A stretch of DNA of 45,053 bases, taken from assembly GCA_020721225.1 (NCBI GenBank), contig DYNE01000018.1, forward strand, positions 1 to 45,053, written 5' to 3'. The position numbers and the translations under genes are program-made. Below the pieces are notes generated by a model, which saw only the letters and a program-made list of their open reading frames with translations, was not told the DNA's origin and made no database searches. How positions within the stretch are numbered: position 1 is the stretch's first letter; each line of letters opens with the position of its first letter. The DNA comes from Pelodictyon luteolum (GTDB lineage: Bacteria; Bacteroidota; Chlorobiia; Chlorobiales; Chlorobiaceae). Below, piece after piece: positions 6,960 through 44,466 of this stretch.

Positions 6960-6973
6960 CGGCGTTATGTCTT

Positions 6974-7407
6974 ATTCCAATTCTATTTCAATAATGCACG
7001 TATAATCCAGGAGCAAGCGATGAGGGAATGGGAAGATGGGGATTGTGGGCGGGAAGAGGAGTATCGTTCGCGGGACGAACGGGAGTATAGCTCGCTTCGC
7101 ATTGCTGGAGTATCGCTTCGCGGCAGAAGTTTGGGGAATTAGTTCTAAGTTCTGAGTTATGAGTTCTGAGTGGAGATCGGAAGAACGTGCTGAGTGTTAC
7201 GGGTCAGGTTGAAGAGGCTGGAGTTGAAAAAAAACATAATTTTATGCCGCGTGGCGTGCAATGCTCCCATTCGCGGAGCGAATGATACGCCCGGGCGTAC
7301 CCGACCGATACTCCCGCGAAGCGATACTCCTTTTGTGCTGGTTAATGGGAGGGAATTTCAGGATTGTCGCGGGCAATATGATTGCTTATTTGTATTGGAA
7401 ATGGAAT
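6974..7407 (+). repeat. Complete copy B of the long intergenic repeat (~434 bp)
   Basis: The left end is ATTCCAATTCTATTTCAATA and the right end, reverse-complemented, is ATTCCATTTCCAATA. The two ends are therefore imperfect inverted repeats sharing ATTCCA..TTTC..AATA. Inside are the GGAGTAT/ATACTCC words separated by small palindromes, a heptamer run, the GATCGGAA block and a second palindrome-rich segment at 7261-7330. Copy C (43828-44464) has the same ends and order. Copy A is a truncated inverted copy. No intact ORF is credible inside. It may be a non-autonomous mobile or structural repeat (inference). Confidence 0.85.
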
Positions 7408-7453
7408 TAAGCGTTGGCAGGAAGCGATCAGCAACAAAATAAGGAGGTTTTTC

Positions 7454-20380: not shown

Positions 20381-20986
20381 TTATCCCGATACCCGTCCTC
20401 TGGAGAGGTGCGGGTTGCCGATGATGAACTTTCTCCAGGGCAGGTCGCGGCTGCGGGTTATGCCCACTCTCGCGCTGGTGCCGATCGCCTTTTCCGGCAG
20501 TTCCGGGGCATCTTCGACAGAGAATTCTCCGTCGAAAAGCGATCGGCCGTTGCAGTCGAGGTCGATGGCCATCGCCCGGGTGAGTTTGCCCGGGCCGCTC
20601 ATGAGGTTTGTGGCAAGGGAGGTGCCGCGGCGTTCACGCATGAACGATTCTCCTTCAAGCGGTTCCAGGGCCCGTATCAGCACGGCTCCGGCAGTGTGTT
20701 CGGGTTCGCTGACGATGTTGAGCATGTAGTGGTTGCCGTAGGTGAAATACACGTAGAGCCTGCCGGGTTCGGCGAACATCATCCCGTTCCGCTCCGTTTT
20801 TCCTTGCCAGGCGTGGCAGGCTTCGTCTCCATGACCCAGATAGGCTTCGGTCTCGACGATTCTGCCTTTCAGCATAAGATCATCCGGCATCCGGCGGACA
20901 AGAATTTTGCCCAGCAGCTTTTCGGCAAGGTGCAGAGTCGGGTATTCAAAGAATTGTTTTTCAAGCGGTTGCACGAATCCCTTCAT
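20381..20986 (-). CDS. 3-methyladenine DNA glycosylase, AAG/MPG family
   Basis: A 201-residue protein of the alkyladenine glycosylase (MPG) family. It shows [14 protein letters not shown], the catalytic segment [19 protein letters not shown] (with the active-site Glu), [15 protein letters not shown] and the AVLIRALEP strand, then [11 protein letters not shown]. The enzyme removes alkylated and some deaminated purines from DNA to begin base excision repair. The length and motif order are normal. It is transcribed alone, divergently from parA with an 85-bp shared upstream region, and ends at the strong terminator to the left. Confidence 0.93.
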
Positions 20987-43524: not shown

Positions 43525-43827
43525 TGCATATTTGCTTGATCAAAAATTGAAAAGAATACACGGTGGAAAACAAGCAGTATTTCCACATGTCCAAATGTAA
43601 TATAACGAACGGCAATCTAAATCATTACATCATCCTCACAAGGCAAACCGATCCATTCGCCCCAACCCTCGACCCCGATTGCCGAAAAACCCTCATAATC
43701 ACTGTTCCGGTGCGGGAATACGCAATTTCTCGCATGTCGATTCAGCTCGAAAGCCTGGAATTTCGACATCGGCGGTCAGCCGGATTCTGAAGCGACACTG
43801 AGTTTATGTCGGTGTCTGTGGTGTGTA
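43525..43827. other. 303-bp gap upstream of the two-gene unit
   Basis: I see no convincing gene. A minus-strand frame of 50 codons (43617-43769, beginning MSKFQAFELNRHARN) and a plus-strand frame of 75 codons from a GTG at 43563 are both open but unsupported. The region must contain the promoter of the minus-strand unit; an AT-rich stretch at 43525-43565 directly before its start codon is the likely site. Confidence 0.3.
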
Positions 43828-44258
43828 ATTCCAATTCTATTTCAATAATGCACGTATAATCCAGTACCAGGCGATGAGGGAATGGGAAGAAGAAGATCGT
43901 GTTACGGGTTAAGTGATACGTGTTAAGTTTGGGGAGAGGAGTATCGTTCGCGGGGCGAACGGGAGTATGCTCGCTGTCGCATCGCGGAGTATAGCTCGCT
44001 TCGCATTGCTGGAGTATCGCTTCGCGGTAGAAGATTGGGGAATTAGTTCCTGGTTCTGAGTTCTGAGTGGAGATCGGAAGAACGAGCTGAGTGTTACGGG
44101 TCAGGTTGAAGAGGCTGGAGTTGAAAAAAGAACATAATTTTATGCCGCGCGGCGCGCAATACTCCCATTCGCGGAGCGAATGATACTCCCGGTCGTACCC
44201 GACCGATACTCCTTTTCCTCTGGTTAATGGGAAGGAATTTCAGGATTGTCGCGGTGAC

Positions 44259-44437
44259 TATAGGGCACATCTATAAAGTGTGATGAGCGATCAAAGTGCA
44301 AGGCGGACGGAGTCCCGATAGATCGGGATAAACTACAAAACCGGAGTCCCGACAAGTCGGGATGAGGATTTCGATCCCGACTTGTCGGGACAACGCAGCA
44401 ATTTGGGTGCGCAATAACTTTATAGAGGTACCCTATA
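44259..44437. mobile_element. 179-bp MITE-like element nested in repeat copy C
   Basis: The ends are TATAGGGCACATCTATAAAGT (44259-44279) and, on the other strand, TATAGGGTACCTCTATAAAGT (44417-44437 reversed), 19 of 21 bases identical. Copy B lacks this insert, so it is a later insertion. The interior carries three GTCCCGA..TCGGGAT palindromes. No ORF is present, so it would need a transposase from elsewhere, perhaps an IS of the group with GGTACCC/GGGCACC-type ends (inference). No clear target duplication is visible; GCGGT and ACCGC flank it as an inverted pair. Confidence 0.75.
44346..44391. repeat. Long perfect hairpin inside the MITE-like element
   Basis: GTCCCGACAAGTCGGGAT (44346-44363) and its exact complement ATCCCGACTTGTCGGGAC (44374-44391) flank a 10-base loop. 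Each arm is itself nearly palindromic, so the sequence can also form two small hairpins. A related arm, GTCCCGATAGATCGGGAT, lies at 44312-44329. Confidence 0.9.
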
Positions 44438-44466
44438 ACCGCATGGTTGTATTGGAAATGGAATAA

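Follow-up and report, generated by a model that had tools for sequence, protein, structure and literature searches.

MITEs of the IS630/Tc1-mariner type are short, non-autonomous, multi-copy and largely intergenic elements, with inverted ends in common with IS630-type insertion sequences (ISs) and a target duplication at their borders. As for the ISs themselves, insertion of ISY100 is almost confined to TA, a dinucleotide that it duplicates, and IS630 likewise duplicates TA (PMC2170065). Another kind of dispersed repeat is represented by the REP/BIME–RAYT systems, in which a short fixed word precedes units that are often palindromic and occur in mixed orientation, and whose families are catalogued by their GTAG or CGTC tags (PMC2817692, PMC3733652). 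Prokaryotic MITEs such as Chunjie of Geobacter can moreover be diverse in size and sequence from copy to copy (PMC10969869).

The repeat family considered here was analyzed from a contig of Pelodictyon luteolum (DYNE01000018.1, assembly GCA_020721225.1, 45,053 nucleotides, the whole of which we call the window). Its members resemble IS630/Tc1-mariner-type MITEs in all the features listed above, but they are flanked by a 3-bp TNA instead of TA, and their interior is a mosaic of hairpin units and tandem tracts, variable from copy to copy, in elements of 316–1,037 bp. The partner IS that we describe below is comparable with ISY100 and IS630 in its inverted ends and in a transposase with an N-terminal HTH and a C-terminal DDE domain; the triplet at the borders of our family is TNA, as opposed to their TA (PMC2170065). 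The interior units recall REP/BIME sequences by being often palindromic, behind a short fixed word and in mixed orientation; unlike these, they carry no GTAG/CGTC tag, do not adjoin RAYT genes, and sit within an element that has its own ends and target duplication. With Chunjie the family shares the diversity of its copies in size and sequence, no kinship being claimed. What is unusual about the family is that it duplicates TNA and that its interior is a mosaic. Our search for literature on Chlorobium MITEs, Chlorobium IS630 elements or an IS630 element with TNA, which covered titles and abstracts and had most subscription journals outside its scope, returned nothing relevant; a relative of the family may already be listed in ISfinder or in subscription journals.

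Element limits and the duplicated triplet

The initial annotation had described, at positions 6974–7407, a repeat in which GGAGTAT/ATACTCC words alternate with small palindromes, and had held that two window copies, B and C, share both ends as imperfect inverted repeats. The repeat is there and its sequence reads as described, with precise element limits at 6975–7406. Copies B and C do share both ends and are the complete copies of the window, and these ends are fixed and inverted, the inversion being imperfect. The features of the window are as follows:

6975–7406, + strand: copy B, complete MITE, 432 bp, TTCC...GGAA
6972–6974, no strand: copy B left target-site duplication, TTA
7407–7409, no strand: copy B right target-site duplication, TTA
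6975–7031, + strand: copy B left end; its homologue in the IS630-type IS is the 3'-side end
7367–7406, + strand: copy B right end; its homologue in the IS630-type IS is the promoter-side end
7058–7122, + strand: copy B direct GGAGTAT array with hairpin-like spacers, words at 7058, 7082 and 7107
7262–7331, + strand: copy B inverted array with hairpin spacers, words ATGCTCC, ATACGCC and ATACTCC
43829–44463, + strand: copy C, complete MITE, nested insertion included; G071 is also occupied at this site (L168/L174)
43826–43828, no strand: copy C left target-site duplication, TAA
44464–44466, no strand: copy C right target-site duplication, TAA
44263–44433, no strand: second mini-element nested in copy C, GGGCACATCTATAAAGT...ACTTTATAGAGGTACCC, TATA flanks
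1–217 (about), − strand: copy A, internal part only, its left end lost and its right part beyond the contig end

Among ORFs of at least 80 aa, the longest one overlapping copy B has 82 aa and extends beyond the right end of the element, and an Rfam search of the window returned tRNA only. The nested insertion in copy C, which the initial annotation had not separated, measures 171 bp. This mini-element has inverted ends GGGYACMTCTATAAAGT and contains CCCGAC/GTCGGG hairpins; of it, only GAGGTACCC is kept in L174, the orthologue of copy C, and its end resembles GGGAACCTCTATAAATT, which adjoins a degenerate and divergent IS630-type remnant at G000:C58 (L241).

Beyond the window, we searched its genome for each 20-bp end with up to 3 mismatches allowed, which gave 41 matches for the left end, 41 for the right end and 0 for the reversed-pattern controls; a 461-bp query matched 72 pieces of the same genome. 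Pairing left and right ends yielded 23 complete elements, every one of them in left-to-right arrangement, with a median length of 503 bp (range 316–1,037 bp, measured from ATTCC to TNA). Their layout is T-N-A, then TTCC...GGAA, then T-N-A, the two flanking triplets being identical in 22/23 cases and their middle base equal in 23/23, which none of 100,000 permutations equaled. The boundary and target-duplication check proposed in the initial annotation thus provides exact limits and a duplicated TNA triplet, and its concern that the boundaries could be accidental is answered by complete copies that share their ends while their interior varies. The left triplet is TAA in 13 copies, TTA in 7, TCA in 2 and TAT in 1; since the TCA copies contain no TA, a plain TA duplication is ruled out for the MITE, whose duplication is of 3 bp. 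The base preceding the left TNA is itself strongly biased, with counts of G 26, C 7, A 5 and T 0 (e.g., window positions 6971 and 43825). The right side has no comparable bias, which makes this an asymmetric target preference.

Empty sites, distribution and a partner insertion sequence

To look for empty sites, the joined flanks of eight copies were compared with eight congeners. The site of C88 is empty in G065, where all 561 bp align, the join included; that of C4 is continuous and devoid of the element in both G070 and G071; and at that of C16, G065 lacks the element and shows just one TTA where the flanks meet. As these alignments have only 69–80% identity, the exact junction is clear for C16 only. 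Relatives thus have the same loci without the element, and the element therefore moved. Regarding the window copies, the place of copy C is occupied in G071, with a sequence identical there to that of the Chlorobiota MAG K_DeepCast_1200m, and no genome among the relatives matched both flanks of copy B together, hence no comparison site is at hand for it.

A pattern search for the left end in 86 genomes of the family found it almost only in the window's genome, with a few matches in congeners. In public genomes, the exact end pattern gave 10 single matches, 9 of which lie in unrelated organisms and were taken as chance, the remaining one being a genuine Chlorobiota copy; one match on a viral contig had no recognizable element around it. 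The earlier suggestion of a Chlorobi-specific element is thereby supported and narrowed further, to a family amplified essentially in one species with a few copies in two congeners.

Outside the congeners, a left-end match in G051 turned out to belong to an insertion sequence of ~1.12–1.13 kb present in other Chlorobiaceae, which resembles the MITE along some 55 bp of its left end. Its two reading frames encode an IS630-type transposase in two halves, HTH and DDE_3, with profile matches to HTH_23/HTH_33 and DDE_3 (PF13592, PF13384 and PF13358). Against NF033545, whose cut-off of 100 applies to the whole protein, the halves score 44.9 and 98.3 bits. The two frames, orfA and orfB, overlap at A7–A8, which suggests that the transposase may be produced by frameshifting. 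Relatives of this gene are found in 24 of the 86 genomes. We compared the MITE family consensus with both ends of eight complete ISs: identity reaches up to 46/60 at the left end and up to 18/22 at the right end, with left-end local scores of 25–36, where shuffles reach at most 13; the right-end match is short, and for several copies its local score is marginal relative to shuffles and does not exceed their maximum. All 11 complete copies of the partner IS are bordered by TNA at either end, and the middle base is equal in 7/11, which is not beyond chance, so that a 3-bp duplication is only possible for the IS.

Beyond ~55 bp on the left and 22 bp on the right, no match to the IS was found in the interior of the MITE, and the element is therefore not, today, a simple deletion derivative of it; our transposase searches of the window's genome likewise had no match in any element interior. 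No intact cognate transposase was found in the assemblies of the window's genome and of the other two array-bearing genomes, G071 and G004; all three are drafts, which can break at repeats, and its absence is therefore uncertain. As to a partner in the window's genome, the search found only a divergent IS630-type remnant, interrupted by stops, on contig C58. The one intact IS630-type gene of this genome, on C141, was considered as a partner and rejected, as it lacks these ends.

The mosaic interior

GGAGTAT or ATACTCC words occur in 17/23 complete copies. Because the six others have none, GGAGTAT is a common passenger of the family and does not define it. Neighboring GGAGTAT...GGAGTAT pairs nonetheless amount to 170 in the window's genome versus 0 in the control, their words being separated by spacers of 15–19 bp or by a common 9-bp one. 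Several spacers are unrelated perfect hairpins (CGTTCGC/GCGAACG, CGAGCAC/GTGCTCG, CATTCGC/GCGAATG and CGGTCG/CGACCG), and the two commonest long spacers are non-palindromic; over 53 distinct spacers, the mean outer stem is 4.06 versus 2.29 in shuffles (sd 0.15). Short tandem tracts are also found inside the elements in varying combinations, with units described as 7-mers (GTTCTGA, GTAGCC and GCGGTGA), an 8-mer (GCTATCCA) and a 10-mer (CACGGATTTT).

Some of these components exist apart from the ends. Matches to the GTTCTGA tract are also found in congeners, where the ends are absent, and the loci L040 and L042 (G005:C32, ~20880–20974) contain a tandem array of 21-bp units that matches this heptamer tract independently of the MITE. 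Within the window's genome, some arrays miss one or both ends, several of them keeping end pieces, and such arrays look eroded. A GGAGTAT array devoid of MITE ends was also observed in L031 (G004:C80) and at G000:C1:9850–10400; it may be older than the split of the two species, as it lies in the same flanking sequence in both. Given that end-bearing copies have differing interiors and that some arrays have no ends, the interior travels with the ends and does not define them.

Stop-codon placement and competing readings

Whatever the middle base, one strand of a TNA triplet (TAA, TGA, TTA or TCA) reads as a stop codon, and its duplication therefore rebuilds the stop. In 6/23 copies (C4, C16, C27_45572, C34_45529, C62 and C63_109314), the duplicated triplet is the exact stop codon of a long ORF of 242–375 codons. 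Stop codons are expected to form ~6% of the permitted TNA sites, that is, intergenic or stop sites, which gives p=0.0024 for a test picked after the data had been seen, with a background drawn from one window and from crude gene calls. This excess could come from selection or from target choice.

We give a probability of about 0.83 to the reading that these repeats of a green sulfur bacterium form a MITE family with IS630-type ends, which is mobilized in trans, inserts at TNA and is mosaic inside. The initial annotation had proposed a mixture of MITE and REP/BIME features, and its MITE part stands, by virtue of the fixed ends, the target duplication, the empty loci in relatives and the IS with the same ends. 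As for the REP/BIME part, one could conceive that the GGAGTAT-hairpin units are themselves mobile via a RAYT (Y1) transposase and that the shared ends are incidental, a scenario to which the fixed word with its 15–19-bp and often palindromic spacer, in direct and inverted arrays, the absence of recognizable ends from some arrays and the presence of RAYT-like genes in the window's genome and its relatives all lend some appeal. However, none of the RAYT loci inspected has a GGAGTAT array next to the gene, and any repeated word in their flanks is of the GGGGACGT...ACGTCCC kind; the fixed word of the hairpin units is GGAGTAT, with no GTAG/CGTC tag on them; several of the end-less arrays retain the end pieces that make them look eroded; and the word is wholly missing from the six complete elements mentioned above. 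We consequently hold this scenario to be improbable, and the REP/BIME part of the earlier proposal does not stand. As a separate observation on these genes, some Chlorobium RAYT-like genes (L149, L152, L153, L154 and others) encode ~325–340 aa with MPRGARLDAPGTLHHV near the start and are flanked by GGGACGTAAGT...ACTTACGTCC words; they may be RAYTs whose flanks are of the GACG/CGTC type, whereas PMC3733652 reports such an association as not found.

The two other readings seem to us less probable still, and equally so. Within IS5, the IS1031 group typically duplicates TNA, which raises the prospect of a MITE moved by another DDE family with TNA targets, its likeness to IS630-type ends being a coincidence; against this, the 60-bp left-end similarity to the IS630-type IS is far above that of shuffles, and DDE_Tnp_1 is represented in the genome by two short fragments only. 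The repeats could otherwise be conceived not as selfish MITEs but as functional elements selected for an RNA or DNA structure at gene ends, such as a structured 3' UTR, in line with the stop-codon excess, with the pairing that several spacers keep despite their different sequences, and with the folding of copy B, which is better than that of shuffles on both strands (z −3.0 and −4.7). Yet inverted ends and palindromes would give such folding anyway, a scan of copy B found no terminator-like or promoter-like site, the interior varies widely in both sequence and length, and relatives miss the element at the same loci.

Returning to the MITE family with IS630-type ends, mobilization in trans by an IS630-type transposase is most likely, judging from a Chlorobiaceae IS that has the same ends and encodes such a transposase. 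The imperfect ends, TTCCAATTCTATTTCAATAATGC... and ...TGTATTGGAAATGGAA, would be the recognition ends of this IS630-type (Tc1/mariner-like DDE) insertion sequence, at which the transposase acting in trans would excise the element before placing it at a TNA, a triplet that repair would then duplicate. When the insertion falls exactly in a stop codon, the stop would be restored and the gene left intact, so that such insertions would survive, presumably through selection. The interior would be dispensable for movement. It is now a patchwork in which GGAGTAT-hairpin units and short tandem tracts vary from one copy to the next, probably via slippage, deletion and recombination between copies. We also put forward, tentatively and as something we consider rather less likely than its contrary, that a branch of IS630-type transposition cuts a 3-bp TNA in place of TA. 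Each duplication would then be a stop codon in one of the two strands, the element could settle in stop codons with no harm to genes, and the hairpin units inside the MITE would serve as a cassette open to exchange.

From the perspective of genome annotation and mobile-element biology, an orphan and heavily rearranged repeat family is hereby tied to a specific type of transposase, with an exact boundary and target rule. Since the ends are fixed while the interiors differ wholesale, annotation based on the interior is misled. The family also opens two questions to testing: if a 3-bp TNA is a usable target for an IS630-type transposase, and if a mobile element survives in a gene-dense genome by means of targets at which the stop codon is restored.
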